DNA of 64,000 nt from Planctomycetaceae bacterium (lineage in GTDB: Bacteria; Planctomycetota; Planctomycetia; Planctomycetales; Planctomycetaceae): positions 1 through 64,000 of the forward strand of contig WFTL01000094.1 of assembly GCA_015485495.1 (NCBI GenBank), in the 5' to 3' direction. Below are positions 9,321 to 18,790 of this stretch, in pieces. The notes under the pieces were generated by a model that ran no database searches, was not told the origin of the DNA, and was given only the letters and a program-made list of their open reading frames with translations. Made by a program: the position numbers and the translations under genes. Position 1 is the stretch's first letter. The number at the start of each line of letters is the position of its first letter.

Positions 9321-12300
9321 TCAGTAAACATCGGCACCCGACCCATCCGGCTGCCTTTTCTGAGATTCCCGGCCGCGCGCCGCACCTGCCGGCAGCAGGT
9401 CGCGCCCCGCATGACCATTGATTCTTTCCGATTCCGACGAACCTGCGACGGCACGCCGCCGAATACCGAATGGATTCTGAAACACCACGTACAAAACACG
9501 CAGCACAAGCAGTGACATGATGGTCGCGCTGATGACCCCGCCGATGACCACTGTCGCCAGCGGCCTCTGGACTTCCGCCCCCATCCCCGTGCTGAAAGCC
9601 ATCGGCACAAAGCCCAGAGCGGCCACCAGAGTCGTCATCAGCACAGGACGCAGGCGGGTCAGAGCCGCTTCTTCCACCGCCTGCTCCAGGTCGTGTCCTT
9701 TCCCCATGAGCTGACGGATGGTGGATACCAGCAGCATATCATCCAGCACGGCCACGCCGGACAGGGCGACGAATCCCACAGCCGCTGAAATCGAAAAGGG
9801 CATGTCCCGAAGCCACAAAGCCACGATGCCGCCGGTCCACGCGAACGGGATGCCGGTGAAAACCCGCACTGTGTCGATCACGTTGCCGTAGGTGGCGTAC
9901 AGTAGAGAAAAGATGAGCACCAGAGCCACCGGCACCACGATCATCAGACGCTGCCGCGCCTGAATCATATGCTCGAACTGCCCGCCGAATTCCACGCGGT
10001 AGCGGGCCGACGGCATTGTCACCTGCTCTGCGATCTTCCGTTCGGCCTCCGCCACGAAACTGCCCACATCCCGTCCCCGCACATTCACGGACACCGTGAC
10101 GCGCCGCTGGCCCCATTCCCGTGAAATCTGAGACGGACCGGATGTGAACATCACGTCGGCCAGACGTTCCAGAGGAATCTGCTCCCCCCGCGGCGTGGTC
10201 ACCGGAAGGGATGCAATCCGTTCCGGATCACTCCGATACTCGTCCGGCAGCCGTACTGTCAGCGGAAAACGCAGCTGGCCCTGGAAGACGTCTCCCACAC
10301 GACGGTTTCCCAGAGCCTCCACCAGATCCAGAACGGCCGAAGCGGGCACACCGTAGCGGGCGATCTGGTCCTGTCGGATCTTCACCTGCAGCATCGGCTG
10401 TCCGGTGAGCTGCGTGGCGCCCACATCGGCTGAACCGGGCACTTCAATGAGCACCCGTTCGATGTCTGCTGCCGTGGCCGCCAGTTCATCCAGATCGTCT
10501 CCATACAGCTTCACGGCGATGTCGGCCCGCGTGCCGGTTCCCAGTTCGTCCATTCGCAGTTTGATCGGCTGCGTGTACGCCAGCCGCTGGCCCGGAAGAC
10601 TCTGCAGGGTCTGTTCGAACAGGGCGGTGAGTTCCGCCTGCGTCGATGCCCGTTTCCATTCGCTGCGTTTTTTCAAAGTGATGAAAATGTCTGTCAGTTC
10701 AAGCCCCATGGGATCCGTGGCGATTTCTGCAGAACCAATCCGGCTCCAGACATGAGAGATTTCATCGGGAAACTTTTCAAGCAGAGCCTTTTCCATCTGC
10801 GTATTGAATCGAATCGATTCGTCCAGCTTCGTTCCGGCCAGGCGCACCACATTGATAGCCACCGAACCTTCGGATAACTGAGGCATGAATTCCGTTCCCA
10901 GATTGGGAGCGATCATGCCGAAGGCCACCAGCAGAACCATGGCGGCAAACCCGATGATGGCCGCTTTCTGGTGCATCGTGAAGTGAAGAACCGGGTGGTA
11001 CAGCCGCTTGAGAACACGAATCAGAAGCGGTTCGCGGTGGCTGACTTTTCGGGGCAGACAAAGGCTGGCCAGAACCGGCATGAGCGTCATGGAAAGAAAC
11101 ATCGAACCGGCCAGAGCGAAAATGACGGTCATCGCCATCGGCCGAAACATCTTCCCCTCGATCCCTTCCAGAGTCAGGATGGGCAGGTACACGATCATGA
11201 TGATCAGTTCGCCGAACATCGTCGGCCCGCGCACCTCGACAGCCGCATCCCGAATCCGCTCCAGACGACTGCGGCCCAGAGGATTCGCATGGGCCAGATG
11301 CCGCACGCAGTTTTCCACCATCACCACGGAACTGTCCACGACCAGCCCAAAATCGATCGCCCCCAGACTCAGCAGACTGGCCGAAATGCCAAACCGCCAC
11401 ATTCCGCTGAACGCGAACAGCATCGACAGCGGAATCGCCAGAGCCACGATCAGACCGGCCCGCAGATTCCCCAGGAAGAAAAACAGAACGGCAACCACCA
11501 GCAGACCGCCTTCGAACAGGTTTCTGCGGACCGTGTCGATCACCGAATCCACGACCTCCGTGCGGTCGTACATCGTGAGCAGCTCCATCCCCTCCGGCAG
11601 ATTCTCCCGGACCTCCGCCAGACGTTCTTTCAGAGCTTCCGTGTACTGGTGCGTGTTTTCTCCCATGAGCATGAAGCCCAGACCCATCACGACTTCCCCG
11701 CGACCGTCCGCCGTCACGGCACCGCGCCGAATCTCATGGCCGATGCGAACGGTGGCCACATCGCGGATTCTGACCGGCACTCCGTCGACCGAACGAATCA
11801 CGATGTTCTCGATCTGCGGAATGTCCGTGGTGCGGCCCAGCCCCTGGACCAGCAGCATTTCTCCCATCCGGTCCACGTTGCCGCCACCGGCGTTCCGGTT
11901 GTTCTGCTGGAGCGCACGGACAATGTCGTCGAAGGTCAGTCCCCGGGAAACCAGACCGGCCGGATCCACGAGAACCTGAAACTGTTTCTCATAACCGCCC
12001 CAGCTGTTGATCTCCGCCGTTCCCGGCACCGTTCTCAACTGAGGCTTCACGACCCAGTCATGAGTCGTACGCAGTTCCGTGAGAAGACGCTCCCGTTCCT
12101 GCCGGGGCAGTCTGTTGAAATCGATGCCGGGATACGTGAGGACATAATGAAACACTTCGCCCAGGCCGGTCGCCACCGGTCCCATTTTCGGCCGCCCCAC
12201 ACCGGCCGGCAGCTCCACCGTGGCCAGACGTTCGCCGACCACCTGACGAGCGAAATAGATGTCCGTCCCGTCTTCGAAGGTGACGACCACCTGACAGAAT

Positions 12301-12566
12301 CCGTATTTGGTCACGGAACGAATGTTCTTCAGAGCCGGCAGTCCGCTCAAAGACTGTTCGATCGGATACGTGATCTGCCGTTCGATCTCTTCCGGACCCA
12401 GTGCCGGTGCCGTGGTATTGACCTGGACCATCACCGGTGTCGTGTCCGGGAAGGCATCCACATCGAGCTGGCTGAGCGCATAACCGCCGCCGGCGACCAG
12501 CACAAGAATGCCCAGCAGCACCGCGGCACGGTGGTGCAGTGCCAGATCAATCAGTCGCGTGAGCAT
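9321..12566 (-). CDS. czcA: CzcA-type heavy-metal RND efflux pump
   Basis: The 1081-residue pump has the family N-terminus DVDAFPDTTPVMVQVNT and PALGPEEIERQITYPIE. TM4 carries IDFGLVVDSSVVMVENCVR, the full D-D-E proton-relay set of divalent-cation exporters of the CzcA group, unlike the pump at 654-3902. Two large periplasmic loops and 12 predicted membrane helices are present. The last 35 residues are hydrophilic and rich in Arg and Gly. The adaptor gene ends 105 bases upstream and the small metal-binding lipoprotein follows by 30 bases. Likely substrates are Zn, Co, Cd or Ni; the exact metal cannot be read from the sequence. Confidence 0.93.
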   Translation of the reverse strand: MLTRLIDLALHHRAAVLLGILVLVAGGGYALSQLDVDAFPDTTPVMVQVNTTAPALGPEEIERQITYPIEQSLSGLPALKNIRSVTKYGFCQVVVTFEDGTDIYFARQVVGERLATVELPAGVGRPKMGPVATGLGEVFHYVLTYPGIDFNRLPRQERERLLTELRTTHDWVVKPQLRTVPGTAEINSWGGYEKQFQVLVDPAGLVSRGLTFDDIVRALQQNNRNAGGGNVDRMGEMLLVQGLGRTTDIPQIENIVIRSVDGVPVRIRDVATVRIGHEIRRGAVTADGRGEVVMGLGFMLMGENTHQYTEALKERLAEVRENLPEGMELLTMYDRTEVVDSVIDTVRRNLFEGGLLVVAVLFFFLGNLRAGLIVALAIPLSMLFAFSGMWRFGISASLLSLGAIDFGLVVDSSVVMVENCVRHLAHANPLGRSRLERIRDAAVEVRGPTMFGELIIMIVYLPILTLEGIEGKMFRPMAMTVIFALAGSMFLSMTLMPVLASLCLPRKVSHREPLLIRVLKRLYHPVLHFTMHQKAAIIGFAAMVLLVAFGMIAPNLGTEFMPQLSEGSVAINVVRLAGTKLDESIRFNTQMEKALLEKFPDEISHVWSRIGSAEIATDPMGLELTDIFITLKKRSEWKRASTQAELTALFEQTLQSLPGQRLAYTQPIKLRMDELGTGTRADIAVKLYGDDLDELAATAADIERVLIEVPGSADVGATQLTGQPMLQVKIRQDQIARYGVPASAVLDLVEALGNRRVGDVFQGQLRFPLTVRLPDEYRSDPERIASLPVTTPRGEQIPLERLADVMFTSGPSQISREWGQRRVTVSVNVRGRDVGSFVAEAERKIAEQVTMPSARYRVEFGGQFEHMIQARQRLMIVVPVALVLIFSLLYATYGNVIDTVRVFTGIPFAWTGGIVALWLRDMPFSISAAVGFVALSGVAVLDDMLLVSTIRQLMGKGHDLEQAVEEAALTRLRPVLMTTLVAALGFVPMAFSTGMGAEVQRPLATVVIGGVISATIMSLLVLRVLYVVFQNPFGIRRRAVAGSSESERINGHAGRDLLPAGAARGRESQKRQPDGSGADVY

Positions 12567-12671
12567 GAATCCGTCCGTTCGTGGAAAATTTCCGAAGCCG
12601 ACCGACCGGCCCCGCCGGTCTCGTCGACAGGTCTCCCGGACCGTTTCCGGAAGACACCTGACCTGAGAATG

Positions 12672-14327
12672 TCAGTGGCCACAGGTGCATCCGGCACCCA
12701 GATTGTTTTTCAGAAGCTGTGCCCGCAGCACATCACTGCCGCGCGACGCCACCACTTCGCCAGGAAGCACACCGGCAATGATTTCCGTGAATCCATCCTG
12801 TTTCACACCGGTCCGCACCGATCGCGCCACGAAGAATTTCGGACGATCCTCCTCAAAAAATCGGGCATCCCGGACGAACACGAGAGTGTTCTCGCCATCC
12901 CACTGCACGGCTTCATCCGGCACGACGATCGCGTCCGGTTCCTCACGCAGAATGATTTCTCCGATCCCGAACGCTTCGTTTTTCAGATGCCCGTCGGAAT
13001 TATCCAGCTCCGCCCGCACACGCACTGTTCGCGTCTGACGGTCCACCGCGGAGCTGATCCAGATGACATGTCCCTCATGCTGACGGGTCTGTCCATCCGG
13101 CTGAAAACGGACTTCCTGACCGATGTGCGTCAGCATCGCGTCTTCGGCCGGGACCCGCAGATCCAGCCACATCACCCGCGTGTCCGACAGCCGAAACATC
13201 CGGGTTCCCCGATCCACAACCTCTCCGATCACAGCTTCCCGCACCACGACACGGCCGGACAGGGGCGCCGTCACGCCGATCAGATTGCCGCTGACAGACG
13301 ATTCGTCCATCTGCTCGGTTCCCAGCCGGCTGACAGCCCGGTTTGCCTCATCCGCCGCCAGAGACCTCAGATAATCGACATCGACCGTCAGCCCCAGATT
13401 GCTCAGAGCCCGCACGGCCCGATCGACAGCGGCACGGGCCTGCTGCAGATCCGTCTGTGTTTCGATCAGCCGGCGACGCGGAACCGCATCCTGCTGCGCC
13501 AGCGGCTCGATGCGCCGAACAACATCTTTCTTCAGCCGTTCGTCAGACAGCGCCGCCAGAAGTTCCGACTTCAGACGACCGGCCTTTTCCGAATCCACGA
13601 CAGCCAGCAGCTGGCCGGCTTCCACCCAGTCCCCCACATTGACAAACACCTGCCGCACCACACCGTCAGCCGGTGGAGACACTTCTGCGGTACGTGTGGC
13701 GTCGTACAGGACTTCCGCGGCCACATTCAGACTTTCCGTCATGGCACGACGCGTCACAGGTTCCACATCCACGCCGGCCCGCCGCATGGCATCAATCGAT
13801 GCAAACTGAATCCGTGATCCCGGAAACTGACTCGTCGGCAGGTTTTCTCGGCGCGGGCGAATCGCCAGAGCCCGTTCGGCTCGTTCCAGATCCGCCGGAG
13901 TCGCCTGGACCGGCTTCTTCGTTTCCGCCAGCGACGGATCGTCCAGAACACACCCATGAACGCCATGGACGTGACAAAAGGTGAGTTCCGGAGCCGGCTC
14001 AATCAGGTCCGGAATGCAGTTGATGCACTCGTCTTCCGGAACCCCGTGACTGTCGCACCAGGCAACCGTTTCCACCGTGGACGGTTCCGCCAGCGATCCA
14101 AACTTCGGCAGCTTCCAGTCGTTGTGATGGCCATACAGCGCCAGTCCCGCCAAAGCGCATACGACGGCGATCGACGGCAGCCAGCCTGCAGCCGCGGACA
14201 GCAGACCGCGAACGGTCCTGCTGCGAGGTCCATCAGACAGGCCTCCCGGCGACTCTTCCGGCAGATCCGGTTCCCGGGAAGGCAGCGGAGAAGCCGGGAT
14301 TTCCGGCGGAGTGATCACTTCAGACAT
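12672..14327 (-). CDS. Membrane-fusion (CzcB-like) adaptor with N-terminal CxxH-x6-CxxC module
   Basis: The 551-residue adaptor starts at ATG 14327 behind GGAG at 7-base spacing. A Pro-rich cytoplasmic segment, one membrane anchor (about residues 45-66) and then a metal-binding segment follow: C91-x2-H94-x6-C101-x2-C104 and FCHVHGVHGC (118-126). The rest is a typical HlyD/CzcB fold: barrel-sandwich, coiled-coil hairpin (about 235-300), beta-barrel and membrane-proximal domains. The protein ends GCTCGH, another possible metal ligand set. It is the adaptor of the CzcA-type pump that follows. The extra N-terminal module is shared with the lipoprotein at 8925-9290. Confidence 0.9.
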   Translation of the reverse strand: MSEVITPPEIPASPLPSREPDLPEESPGGLSDGPRSRTVRGLLSAAAGWLPSIAVVCALAGLALYGHHNDWKLPKFGSLAEPSTVETVAWCDSHGVPEDECINCIPDLIEPAPELTFCHVHGVHGCVLDDPSLAETKKPVQATPADLERAERALAIRPRRENLPTSQFPGSRIQFASIDAMRRAGVDVEPVTRRAMTESLNVAAEVLYDATRTAEVSPPADGVVRQVFVNVGDWVEAGQLLAVVDSEKAGRLKSELLAALSDERLKKDVVRRIEPLAQQDAVPRRRLIETQTDLQQARAAVDRAVRALSNLGLTVDVDYLRSLAADEANRAVSRLGTEQMDESSVSGNLIGVTAPLSGRVVVREAVIGEVVDRGTRMFRLSDTRVMWLDLRVPAEDAMLTHIGQEVRFQPDGQTRQHEGHVIWISSAVDRQTRTVRVRAELDNSDGHLKNEAFGIGEIILREEPDAIVVPDEAVQWDGENTLVFVRDARFFEEDRPKFFVARSVRTGVKQDGFTEIIAGVLPGEVVASRGSDVLRAQLLKNNLGAGCTCGH

Positions 14328-14457
14328 CGTTGTACTCCAAAACAAAAGCATTCAGGCGGTGCACGAACCGCAGCATGACTGCCGGAACCATCCGGGCAGC
14401 ACCAGCGCAGACAGGCGCCGGAGACAGAACCGACACCCTGCAGCAGACAACAGGCGC

Positions 14458-14853
14458 CTAAAGCAGCAGCCGCCCGGAGCACCTCAGCACAGTGCTCGCG
14501 CCTGAAGGGAGCACAACGGCCAGCAGGCGGGATTCCGCCCCCGCCGAAATTCCTGCATCGCCCGGGCACAGATGAAACACGGGAACAACCGCAGGCCCCG
14601 CATCGGCAGAATCTGCCGGCCCTTCCTGAAGATTCGGCGGCAGCGCCCCGGCGCAGAAGCAGTCGTGGCATTCGTCCGAGGATGGTGGAAGTCCCGGCGC
14701 ATCACCGGCTGACTCCCTGCAGCATCCGTCCGTATGAACATGAACGGTCGTCACTTCCGGCGCAGAATGTCTGCCGGTACAGCAGGCCCCGTCCAGGACA
14801 GGACAGGACAGTGCAGACATGCACAGAATGAAGTGGACGAAACGACTGATCAT
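14458..14853 (-). CDS. Cys-rich secreted protein A, first gene of the metal-efflux locus
   Basis: The start MISRFVHFILCMSA at 14853 gives a signal peptide of about 20 residues. The mature part has ACC, GCC and ECHDCFC clusters plus HVHTDG, about 131 residues in all. It matches the design of the proteins at 8054-8479 and 5584-6039, and its C-terminal part (LRCSGRLLL) resembles the end of the latter (DRCARAITQVWQL). It is 130 bases before the adaptor gene and is the first gene behind the likely promoter at 14902-14930. The function is unknown; a periplasmic metal-binding or sensing role is inferred from the cysteines and the neighbours. Confidence 0.6.
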   Translation of the reverse strand: MISRFVHFILCMSALSCPVLDGACCTGRHSAPEVTTVHVHTDGCCRESAGDAPGLPPSSDECHDCFCAGALPPNLQEGPADSADAGPAVVPVFHLCPGDAGISAGAESRLLAVVLPSGASTVLRCSGRLLL

Positions 14854-14901
14854 GTATGGATGGACGCCATCGCGACGGTAAAACAGCACGACATTGGTCA
14901 A

Positions 14902-14957
14902 AGTTTTCGCCAAACCAGTCCGACTGTCAAGGGCAAAATGAACTGACAGTTTTTTTG
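14902..14957 (-). promoter_or_regulatory. Probable promoter of the efflux locus with overlapping inverted repeat
   Basis: On the minus strand a perfect TTGACA (14930-14925) is followed after 17 bases by AAAACT (14907-14902), a weak -10. Transcription would start about 40 bases before the first Cys-rich gene. The -35 overlaps one arm of a 7-bp inverted repeat, ACTGTCA (14923-14929) and TGACAGT (14944-14950), spaced by 14 bases. The repeat is followed by a T-run on the plus strand, so it could also act as a terminator for plus-strand transcription. A repressor or activator site is the other reading. Confidence 0.45.
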
Positions 14958-15135
14958 TTTTTGGTTTGCGCTGAGATATCACGGACCTGCGGTACGGATC
15001 CGACATGCCGTGCAGACGAATGACTCACGAAACTCTGCACCATGTCTGTATCGATCGGCAGCAGAGACCAGCAGTTGCAGCAGGAAATGGTGCATTCCGA
15101 GAAAAGTCTCTCATGTCGGATCGCCTGACTCTGAA

Positions 15136-16338
15136 CTACGGCCGGTTGCGGCCAAAGCGGTCGTGACTGCTGACCCAGTCCCCGCCCACCACAGCCGCCG
15201 CCAGAGAAATCTCGCCGGCCAGGACGGTCGCTGCGCAGATTTCGGCCAGTTTGAGAACCCGTCCTGGTCCGTAACAGCCCAGGATCTCCAGACATTCCCG
15301 CTGAGTCGCCAGGCCCGTGCCGCCGCCGTACGTGGCGATGATCAAAGACGGCAGTGTGATCGACCAGTACAGATCGCCGTTGTCTGCCAGTGACAGATAC
15401 GTCAGACCGGCCTGCGATTCGGCGATGCAGGCGGCATCCTGACCGGTGGCGATGAACAGAGCCGCCAGACCATTGGCCGCATGCAGCCCGTTGCTCGATG
15501 TTCCCGCCAGAAGTCCTCCCACGGTCGACACCTGACGGGCACGGTAGAGCGAACCGGTGTCCACACGCATCTGTTCCTGCAGGACATCAGCGGGAATGAC
15601 GACTTCCGCCACCACACGCGCTCCGCGCGAATGCAGCGTGTTCATCTGAGAATGCTTCTTGTCCGTATCGATGGCTCCGGACAGCGTGAACCGCACGGGG
15701 ACAGGGGTGTGCTCCGCAATCCATTCACAGGCCGCCAGAGTGGCCTTACCGCACAGATTCTGTCCGGCTGCATCGCCCGTCGTGAAGTTGAACCGCAGAT
15801 AACACAGAGGTCCCACAGCATACTGTTCCACGTGAGACAGCCTGCCCACCGATGTGGTCGCTTCGGCCGCCGCTCGCAGTTGGTCCGTCTGCTGCTTCAG
15901 CCAGACACCGAAGTCACGCGCTTCCTGTGCCGTGCGGCAGTGGAACACGGGCGCACGCTGCATGTAACGATGGATCACCACGGTCGACGCACCGCCCAGT
16001 GTCGTCAGCAGCCGCATCCCGCGGCTGTAACTGGCCACCAGCGTCCCTTCGGTCGTGGCCAGCGGAACGTAAAACACGCCCTGCGCATGTTCTCCGCGGA
16101 TCACCAGCGGGCCGGCCAGCCCGATCGGCACCTGTGCCACACCGATAGGATTCTCGATGTTGCCGGGCAGCATCGCCGGATCGAACGACATCTGCGCCAC
16201 ATGGTGCAGTTCCGCACCGGTCTGTTCCTGCACAAAGTGCCGCCGCCGCTCGATGGTCCGCAGTGTGCAGTCGTTCTGCGGATCCCGCGGGATGCGTGGA
16301 GGAACAGACGATTCCCGGGACAGACGGTCCGGATTCAT
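15136..16338 (-). CDS. Hydroxymethylglutaryl-CoA reductase family protein
   Basis: The family reduces HMG-CoA to mevalonate with NAD(P)H (or the reverse). With the start at 16338, behind GGGGAAG, the protein has 400 residues. Visible motifs: ENPIG (62-66) followed by PIGLAGPL; TEGTLVAS with catalytic Glu97; TTGDAAGQN (186-194), the counterpart of the dinucleotide-binding DAMGMN; TDKK with catalytic Lys227/228; GQDAA with Asp301; YGGGTGL (337-343); and a C-terminal His392 in SSHDRFGRNR. All four catalytic residues thus seem present. No other mevalonate-pathway gene is in the window. The upstream DUF1559 gene ends 218 bases away, so shared transcription is possible but unproven. Confidence 0.85.
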   Translation of the reverse strand: MNPDRLSRESSVPPRIPRDPQNDCTLRTIERRRHFVQEQTGAELHHVAQMSFDPAMLPGNIENPIGVAQVPIGLAGPLVIRGEHAQGVFYVPLATTEGTLVASYSRGMRLLTTLGGASTVVIHRYMQRAPVFHCRTAQEARDFGVWLKQQTDQLRAAAEATTSVGRLSHVEQYAVGPLCYLRFNFTTGDAAGQNLCGKATLAACEWIAEHTPVPVRFTLSGAIDTDKKHSQMNTLHSRGARVVAEVVIPADVLQEQMRVDTGSLYRARQVSTVGGLLAGTSSNGLHAANGLAALFIATGQDAACIAESQAGLTYLSLADNGDLYWSITLPSLIIATYGGGTGLATQRECLEILGCYGPGRVLKLAEICAATVLAGEISLAAAVVGGDWVSSHDRFGRNRP

Positions 16339-16556
16339 GGCAACTTCCCCGCAACAGCCGGAACTCGGCAGGACAGAACCGCCCAGCCTCCCGTCCACCG
16401 CCTGTTTGTACAGCGGGTCCGAAGCGATTTCGACCGTTCCACGTCCCGGGAATCGTCAGAAGACGAGCAAACTCAGGCAGGCTGCCTGCGCAGAAATGGA
16501 CGATGCGCCGGTCAGCCACAGCAGCCAGCGCTGCTCAGCGTCGGCAGCCGCTGCCG

Positions 16557-17453
16557 TCAGTATCGGTCATACAGGGCATCCTGCTGATCCGGATCATCCA
16601 GTCCGCCTTCGCTCACATAACCGAGATTCTCTTCCTCCATGCGGGCGGCCTGATCCGGATGAATGAAATTGGATCCGGGTACGTCGATGCGAAACGCCCG
16701 GCCGAACGTGCGGACGCTGCCATCCATGAAGGCCACGTTGGCTGACTGGCTATGACGAAAATGCACATTCGGAAAATTGTTGGACGGCGGTTCCAGCAGC
16801 CACGTTTCTTCGAAACTGAACGTGGCCGGGACGAAAGTCACGTACTTCACCTGAGCGGCGTCGGCAAACGCCACGGTCTGACTCGTGGAACGCAGATCGC
16901 GGAACTGCCGTGTCAGCGGCTGAGAACTGTACGTGGCCGCATAGGTCGGAGGCGGATATTCGATTCCCGAAGGACGCGACAGATAGTATCCGTTGTATCC
17001 GAAGCCGCAGGCCGGTTTTCCCCAGGCCACGTTGTCCATCTGGGCCGGGCCGAAGTCCGGACACTGAAAGGCCGCATAATTCGTTTCCATGAACGGTGCC
17101 AGCGGCCCGGAGGCGAAATCGAACTGTTCTTCCGGGGTTGCCGCGTCGTAATCCACCACCCCGAACCAGAACTGAGACGTTCCCTGATTTCCCGCAAACG
17201 TCATCAGATAGTTCAGCCGCTGCTCATCTTCTACCACATACGGAAGCAGGTGTTCGGGGTAAACATCCGCGTAGTTGTGCAGGGCCAGCACGATCTGTTT
17301 CAGTCGGCTGCGGCACTGAGTCCGCCGGGCGGCAGCCCGGGCCTGCTGCACCGCCGGCAGCAGCAGACTCAGCAGAATCGCGATGATCGCGATCACCACC
17401 AGAAGCTCGATGAGCGTGAAGGCCCGACGGCGGGCCCCAAAAAGAAACCGCAT
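16557..17453 (-). CDS. DUF1559 prepilin-like protein under a cobalamin riboswitch
   Basis: The start [10 protein letters not shown] at 17453 is behind GGAGAAG. The type IV prepilin signal [20 protein letters not shown] is followed by the usual helix ([17 protein letters not shown]) and a beta-rich body, and the C-terminal region has the [12 protein letters not shown] signature (H-x9-DG) of the DUF1559 family. The 298 residues match the family. Such pseudopilin-like proteins are very numerous in planctomycetes and mostly of unknown function; they are thought to be processed by a prepilin peptidase and to sit at the cell surface. What is odd is its leader: a complete cobalamin aptamer ends 116 bases upstream and the ribosome-binding site can be masked. 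Confidence 0.92.
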
Positions 17454-17457
17454 GATT

Positions 17458-17483
17458 CTTCTCCAGAACAGCACCAGGAGAAG
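17458..17483 (-). promoter_or_regulatory. Shine-Dalgarno-sequestering hairpin (riboswitch expression platform)
   Basis: On the minus strand CTTCTCC (17483-17477) can pair perfectly with GGAGAAG (17464-17458) across a 12-base loop. The second arm is the ribosome-binding site of the DUF1559 gene, 4 bases before its ATG. This is what a translation-controlling riboswitch would use as its off state. A second small hairpin (CCGGT/ACCGG, 17489-17504) lies just upstream. Confidence 0.6.
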
Positions 17484-17564
17484 CAATACCGGTGAACTGA
17501 CCGGGGCGCGCAGGACGCCTGGCTGTCAGTCGCCGACATCACCTTTCCGCGAAGGGATATCAAC

Positions 17565-17775
17565 ACGCGCGGAGGCAGGTCTTCTGGCTTCCGGATCGTC
17601 CAGTAGGATCGCCCTTCCCGCCGGAAAGCACCTGCAAGCGGCTTTCTGCGGCAGTGGACCTGCGATTCTGTCCCCGGTTACAGCGGCGGGACCGCGACGG
17701 ACTTGCACCGTCTTCCCTTTTCAACTGCCCGACGTCTGCGGAATGTTTCGCAGCGCCGACAGTCACCTCCGTCAC
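17565..17775 (-). promoter_or_regulatory. Cobalamin (B12) riboswitch aptamer
   Basis: Read on the minus strand, the region has the conserved cobalamin-aptamer elements in order: a P1 arm CGGAGG (17771-17766); GAAAAGGGAA; GGTGCAAGTCCG (17709-17698); GCGGTCCCGCCGCTGTAA (17695-17678); CCACTGC (17657-17651); the B12 box AAGCCAGAAGACCTGCC (17590-17574); and the closing P1 arm CCTCCG (17575-17570), which pairs exactly with the first. The length of about 200 bases is normal. It controls the gene transcribed in the same direction, the DUF1559 protein, and possibly the HMG-CoA reductase behind it. The divergent argB is on the other strand and is not its target. Confidence 0.93.
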
Positions 17776-17914: not shown

Positions 17915-18790
17915 ATGCAGGAAGCCATCCGCAAAGCCGACACTCTCATCGAAGCACTCGGATGGATCCGCCGCTTCCGTGGCCGCTACGTCGTCGTGAA
18001 ACTCGGCGGCAGCACACTCAGCGACTCCACAGCCGTGGACAGTCTGCTCACCGACATCGTATTCATGGCCACCGTGGGCATGCGGCCGATTCTGGTGCAC
18101 GGCGGCGGCAGTGCCATCAGTGCCGCCATGGCCCGGGAAGGCATCGAACCGACCTTCGTGGAAGGGCGGCGCTACACCGACCAGGCCACTCTGAAAATCG
18201 CTTCCCGTGTTCTCATTGAGGAAATCTGTCCGGATCTGGTCTGTCGGATTCAGGATCGCGGCGGACGGGCCACCGGCCTGCACTTCGGCACCGAAAATGT
18301 CCTCACCGCCGCTCCCCTGCAGCTCACCGATGACAACGGACAAACGATCGACCCCGGTTTTGTCGGCCAGGTGACTCATGTCGATCGCGACCTGTTGTCC
18401 CGCGTCTGTTCCACCGGGACCATTCCCGTCATCCCCAGCATCGCTCTGGACGATCACGGACACCGGCTGAATGTGAACGCCGACACGGCCGCCGCCGCCG
18501 TCGCCCGGGCGATCGATGCGGAAAAGCTGGTTTTTCTGAGCGATATTCCTGGGATTCTCACGGACGTGAACAACCCGGATTCCCGCCTGTCTCATGTGAC
18601 GGCAACTGAGGTTCGCGGATTCATCTCAGACGGTACAATCTCCGGCGGAATGGTCCCCAAAGTCCAGGCAGCCCTGGACGCTCTGGCAGCCGGTGTCAGC
18701 AAAGTGCACATTGTGGATGCCGGAATGCCCCATTCCGTACTGCTGGAAATCTATTCTGACACCGGTGTGGGAACCGAAATCGTAGGATAG
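17915..18790 (+). CDS. argB: Acetylglutamate kinase
   Basis: Phosphorylates N-acetylglutamate in arginine biosynthesis. The 291-residue protein has the amino-acid-kinase fold: KLGGSTL near residue 29 (phosphate-binding Lys), [10 protein letters not shown], the substrate loop [32 protein letters not shown], and [12 protein letters not shown] near the C-terminus with the conserved lysine. The ATG at 17915 follows directly on the region divergent to the riboswitch. argD follows after 177 bases, so the two probably act as a small arginine cluster, possibly in one transcript. Confidence 0.95.

Follow-up and report, generated by a model that had tools for sequence, protein, structure and literature searches.

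A cobalamin riboswitch precedes a pilin-like DUF1559 gene in planctomycetes and suggests a role in corrinoid acquisition in the genomic place of BtuB

The window, that is, the whole 64-kb stretch of Planctomycetaceae DNA analysed here, carries a cobalamin riboswitch directly in front of a gene for a prepilin-like DUF1559 protein, with the following features around it:

9321-12566, minus strand: RND gene of a CusA/CzcA-type heavy-metal pair (Pfam/NCBIfam scan)
12672-14351, minus strand: HlyD gene of the same pair (Pfam/NCBIfam scan)
14458-15006, minus strand: small Cys/His-rich ORF ahead of the RND pair, with no Pfam match
15136-16398, minus strand: HMG-CoA reductase gene (PF00368), a neighbour judged incidental
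16557-17453, minus strand: B12-clade DUF1559 prepilin gene, 298 aa (PF07596, PF07963, ectodomain profile, clade tree, AF2 model)
17454-17556, minus strand: leader from aptamer to start codon and putative expression platform (sequence read directly, alternative pairings folded)
17458-17464, minus strand: putative Shine-Dalgarno sequence GGAGAAG, within a 7-bp hairpin in the MFE structure of the aptamer-to-start stretch
17477-17483, minus strand: putative anti-Shine-Dalgarno sequence CUUCUCC, its exact complement
17785-17557, minus strand: cobalamin riboswitch aptamer (RF00174, cmscan), full length (model positions 1-189) with the large peripheral region present
17915-18790, plus strand: divergent argB-like amino-acid kinase gene (PF00696), outside the system, a syntenic anchor that is also the neighbour in genomes G099 and G100

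An earlier note, made from the sequence of the window, had placed a cobalamin aptamer at 17454-17775, an interval that takes in nearly all of the aptamer and its leader, and the covariance model bears it out, since RF00174 scores 106.4 bits (E 1.2e-25), far above the gathering score of 31.5. No other Rfam family exceeds its threshold in the window, and the 4.67 Mb host genome yielded no second cobalamin riboswitch. The ligand is probably adenosylcobalamin, which we assume from the full class-I type architecture of the aptamer. As the note had also claimed, the target is a DUF1559 prepilin-like gene, the first gene on the same strand, whose start lies 103 nt past the aptamer; judging from the sequence, the aptamer would bind cobalamin, and B12 would repress this gene. 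The genome holds about 21 DUF1559 genes among an estimated total of ~4,000, and the accidental placement of one riboswitch before one of them has a probability of about 0.5%.

The encoded protein has a pilin-type N-terminal helix and, at residues of about 65-298, an ectodomain that is predicted to be beta-rich and carries the signatures FWFG and HFRH. It matches the DUF1559/SBP_bac_10 family (PF07596; 50.4 bits versus a cut-off of 23.3) and the prepilin methylation motif N_methyl (PF07963; 31.6 versus 21.2 bits), and it contains the NCBIfam H-X9-DG motif. The AF2 model (pLDDT 91.2, pTM 0.85) comprises a helix at residues 14-64 and a beta-rich head. A known fold was sought for the ectodomain; Foldseek returned nothing significant with this model (E > 0.5) and all the chains listed after realignment with VIA-align were type IV pilins, the best being PilA4 (Z 5.3, 123 aligned residues), a result that does not by itself establish a new fold. 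Several residues, including F97, G98, L118, D198, E216, H231, F232, R233, Y295, and D296, are near-invariant in the clade described below and rare or absent in 17 paralogues from the same genome, and the clade-specific conservation of F97, G98, L118, D198, E216, and R233 suggests a specific ligand or partner.

Between the aptamer and the start codon, the exact complementarity of the two motifs listed above allows a perfect 7-bp hairpin able to close the Shine-Dalgarno sequence, and a predicted alternative leader fold pairs CUUCUCC elsewhere. Such an arrangement would fit a translational OFF switch. The predicted stability of the leader fold does not exceed that of shuffled sequences (z −0.18), and Shine-Dalgarno accessibility is not clearly lower in riboswitch-linked leaders (median 0.27 unpaired) than in six paralogues from the same genome (0.39). 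As this control gave no separation, sequestration was rejected as a general feature and is kept as an observation on the window. An intrinsic terminator was also considered as the platform and discarded, the single weak candidate on this strand (17504-17489) being within shuffle expectation.

Of 170 genomes from the family to which the host belongs, 135 contain RF00174 cobalamin riboswitches. In a non-random sample of 60 family loci with 63 riboswitches, picked to represent different genera together with extra copies from multi-riboswitch genomes, a prepilin gene is next on the same strand at 49 of the 63 sites. At the 14 remaining sites, the genes that follow encode class Ia NrdAB, DUF4465 PEP-CTERM proteins, DUF6580 (together with a BtuF-like or Cob-type gene), or BtuB, so that B12-type targets account for all inspected sites that lack a prepilin. 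An ectodomain profile (A2) was built from the riboswitch-linked genes of the family, leaving out the shared prepilin helix; at E ≤ 1e-30 it matches a single gene, and no more, in each of 105 out of the 170 genomes, where DUF1559 candidates number some 20-130 per genome. Ninety-four of these 105 genes lie directly behind a listed cobalamin riboswitch. The repetition of the linkage in so many genomes removes chance as an explanation. Among the remaining 11, the aptamer is cut by the contig end in G109 and is weak in G057, and several more genes are at contig ends. The two nearest congeners of the host, G099 and G100, keep the DUF1559 ortholog in the same place beside argB (loci L211 and L212), with a leader about 200 bp shorter and no aptamer even at a relaxed threshold; the riboswitch has apparently been lost inside this genus. 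In genus g10 (L278, L279, L280), the genomes are large, hold around 100 DUF1559 candidates, for the most part lack a cobalamin riboswitch, and contain a distant B12-clade member without a riboswitch.

The search across planctomycete genomes and the tree proposed in the earlier note extend this association beyond the family. In a tree of 69 riboswitch-linked and 23 unlinked DUF1559 proteins, the latter mostly paralogues from the host genome, 50 of the linked proteins, including that of the window, form one clade (SH-aLRT 100) that contains none of the 23 unlinked ones. Its members come from six families (f1, f3, f4, f5, f6, and f8), and families f3, f4, f5, f6, and f8 of the class show the same riboswitch-DUF1559 arrangement as the family of the window. 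Two further groups of linked proteins are separate lineages, a second one with 15 members, some adjoining DUF4465, and a small third one from family f2. A profile search of the phylum gave five distant matches outside the class; in four of them (G531, G707, G765, and G519), the gene has a cobalamin riboswitch ahead of it on its own strand, about 0-2.9 kb away, and the fifth sits on a 3.3-kb contig. In G531 and G707, the same stretch also contains a BtuF-like gene.

The genes that accompany the prepilin gene point to B12 metabolism. Of 37 B12-clade genes inspected in the family, 25 have behind them a small lipoprotein-like gene bearing a CxxC motif, 20 have DUF6580, 14 a BtuF-like gene, and 11 a Dph6-like ATPase. 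In the cultivable relative Thalassoglobus neptunius (L138), the operon runs in the order DUF1559, small lipoprotein-like gene, Dph6-like gene, DUF6580, and BtuF-like gene. The structural model of DUF6580 weakly resembles an ECF-transporter S-component (best Foldseek probability 0.97, TM 0.45, E 0.34), which would make this protein a candidate B12 membrane transporter; no mention of DUF6580 was found in open-licence papers. DUF6580 accompanies BtuF-like genes at L061 and its relatives, and the BtuF-like proteins read as having no signal peptide. In G051 (L059), the order in the riboswitch operon is DUF1559, small lipoprotein, BluB, CobQ, CobO, and CobT, the Cob and Blu names being assigned by sequence alone, and this operon reads as joining the pilin-like gene to corrinoid salvage genes. 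The host genome carries DUF6580 next to a BtuF-like gene on a different contig (C91), without a riboswitch, and in the window, as at L073, L102, L110, and L112, the DUF1559 gene is the sole recognised B12-type gene behind the riboswitch. Other genes found behind these riboswitches include DUF4465, a family shown experimentally to bind B12 (PMC13398666), at L054, L064, L091, L095, and L258, and also at L068a, L087, and L088; at the first five, it comes directly after a member of the second, separate DUF1559 lineage, constituting a second DUF1559/B12 module. Class Ia NrdAB, or its large subunit, is directly behind a cobalamin riboswitch at L063a, L070b, L082, L086, L090, L103, L254, L257, and L263.

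The host appears to have a need for B12. A 1297-aa B12-binding protein reads as methionine synthase (MetH), and a putative methylmalonyl-CoA mutase gene lies beside a MeaB-like gene; no match to CbiC was found in the host genome, at 98% completeness. With B12-dependent enzymes and no CbiC, the host probably relies on imported or salvaged corrinoid. The other neighbours in the window are judged incidental. The earlier note had drawn attention to the HMG-CoA reductase gene behind the DUF1559 gene and to the cobalt-type RND locus nearby, and both are present as described, but neither is conserved at riboswitch loci. The HMG-CoA reductase gene was rejected as a co-target, having no homologue at other riboswitch loci, and the small Cys/His-rich ORF likewise has none there. 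The RND pair was also left out of the regulon, given that the same arrangement occurs elsewhere only at L063 (L063b) and that a gap of 785 bp, with the small ORF in front of the pair, separates it from the HMG-CoA reductase gene; the stretch 9321-15006 on the minus strand is probably a separate metal-efflux operon.

The distribution of BtuB in the family is complementary in part to that of the DUF1559 gene. BtuB-type receptors occur in 22 family genomes, as strong TIGR01779 matches that all fall below the curated cut-off of the model, and in at least 15 of these genomes BtuB is directly behind the riboswitch. The B12-clade DUF1559 gene is missing in 18 of the 22 and present in 101 of the 148 genomes without BtuB (Fisher p = 1e-5, phylogeny ignored). 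The exchange between the two genes is seen inside genera g15 and g48. Both genes occur in G082, G083, and G108, and neither in 47 family genomes; the host genome (G000) has no BtuB match. In G103 (L113), which bears a riboswitch-BtuB arrangement, a riboswitch-linked DUF1559 gene is split over two frames, by decay or assembly error.

What is established, namely the aptamer, its adjacency to a single-copy DUF1559 ortholog, the clade- and phylum-wide linkage, the operons with B12 genes, the replacement by BtuB at the same place, and the B12-dependent enzymes of a host genome without CbiC, is best explained by an OFF switch, responsive to cobalamin, for a pilin-like protein that is dedicated to corrinoid acquisition and takes the genomic place of BtuB (probability about 0.7). 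Conserved B12-riboswitch control and shared operons with B12 genes align the DUF1559 gene with BtuB-like B12 acquisition, and a surface protein for corrinoid capture, one of the roles raised in the earlier note, is the best-supported reading, the covariance score and the wide occurrence in relatives both speaking for it. When intracellular cobalamin, probably adenosylcobalamin, is plentiful, it would bind the aptamer and the ribosome-binding site would be closed, so that repression by B12 would act at translation. When cobalamin is scarce, translation of the prepilin would proceed, prepilin peptidase would process it, and the product would be exposed in or on the envelope; there its beta-rich ectodomain could bind and capture corrinoid or aid its passage inward to DUF6580 and the BtuF-like protein as inner-membrane and cytoplasmic components. 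DUF1559 would fill the envelope role held by the TonB-dependent BtuB in relatives. The broader proposal, that in most planctomycetes a pilin-derived family has taken over the initial step of B12 uptake from the TonB-dependent outer-membrane receptor, is tentative and somewhat short of an even chance.

A different role for the protein, as an assembly or adhesion factor, for instance a pseudopilin that exports or anchors B12-binding lipoproteins or DUF4465 proteins and is co-regulated with them, would suit its true prepilin N-terminus, its predicted pilin-like fold, and the second DUF1559 lineage that directly precedes the B12-binding DUF4465 family at five loci. Nevertheless, it seems rather unlikely, since in the window and at four other loci DUF1559 is the one recognised B12-type gene behind the riboswitch, and since the invariant ectodomain residues of the clade suggest a specific ligand or partner. 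The earlier note had alternatively envisaged a process that is replaced when B12 is scarce, and the presence of riboswitches of this class ahead of NrdAB (class Ia) in the genomes studied recalls isozymes, such as MetE and NrdAB, that are needed only under B12 scarcity without handling B12. For DUF1559, such a function is quite improbable, because none of the known B12 enzymes has a pilin as its isozyme, because members of the clade are found in operons alongside DUF6580, BtuF-like, and Dph6-like genes or, in G051, alongside what read as corrinoid salvage genes, and because the clade occupies the position that BtuB has in other genomes. It could also be argued that the riboswitch controls the downstream genes, transport-type genes being behind DUF1559 in most operons of the family, and that DUF1559 is a mere passenger in first position. 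There is very little room for this explanation, as the host genome keeps the aptamer and DUF1559 together and has DUF6580 and the BtuF-like gene on a separate contig, and the linkage to one ortholog holds across the class and beyond.

The corrinoid-acquisition reading can be compared with known systems. The DUF1559 gene shares with riboswitch-controlled btuB (TIGR01779) the same RNA, the same first-gene position, sometimes swapped within a genus, and presumably a step at the envelope. The proteins themselves differ, since the window protein is pilin-like, with a predicted single helix and beta-rich head, and has no barrel, plug, or sequence relation to BtuB; its Pfam and NCBIfam matches are to prepilin and DUF1559 models only, and not to a TonB-dependent barrel with a plug. 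With other DUF1559 proteins it has in common the prepilin N-terminus, the CP motif, H-X9-DG, and the Pfam match above cut-off, but the B12 clade has its own ectodomain signature, is single copy, and is tied to the cobalamin riboswitch, no such tie being known for the others. In Bacteroides, BtuG, BtuH, and BtuJ/DUF4465 are surface B12-binding lipoproteins (PMC13398666, PMC12751083). They are likewise encoded in B12-riboswitch loci, and DUF4465 is also found behind planctomycete riboswitches; however, they are not recognisably related to DUF1559 and work with BtuB, whereas most genomes considered here have no BtuB match.

DUF1559 proteins are among the largest planctomycete families, with 68-74 genes per genome in model species (PMC10632474, PMC2754498), including 68 paralogues in Planctopirus limnophila (PMC10632474), and have no established function, so a conserved B12 switch on one clade offers a concrete role. 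Searches of the open-licence literature on DUF1559, H-X9-DG, cobalamin riboswitches with pilins, and planctomycetes with BtuB found no earlier report. If true, the proposed function would give a pilin-like protein a role in vitamin uptake and a DUF1559 protein a physiological role, neither of which was found described. The shared riboswitch and the exchange with BtuB suggest that the uptake of a large vitamin could proceed independently of a TonB receptor in planctomycetes. Moreover, the expansion of DUF1559 may reflect many ligand-specific surface proteins, and riboswitch linkage would be a practical marker to assign ligands to other clades of this family.
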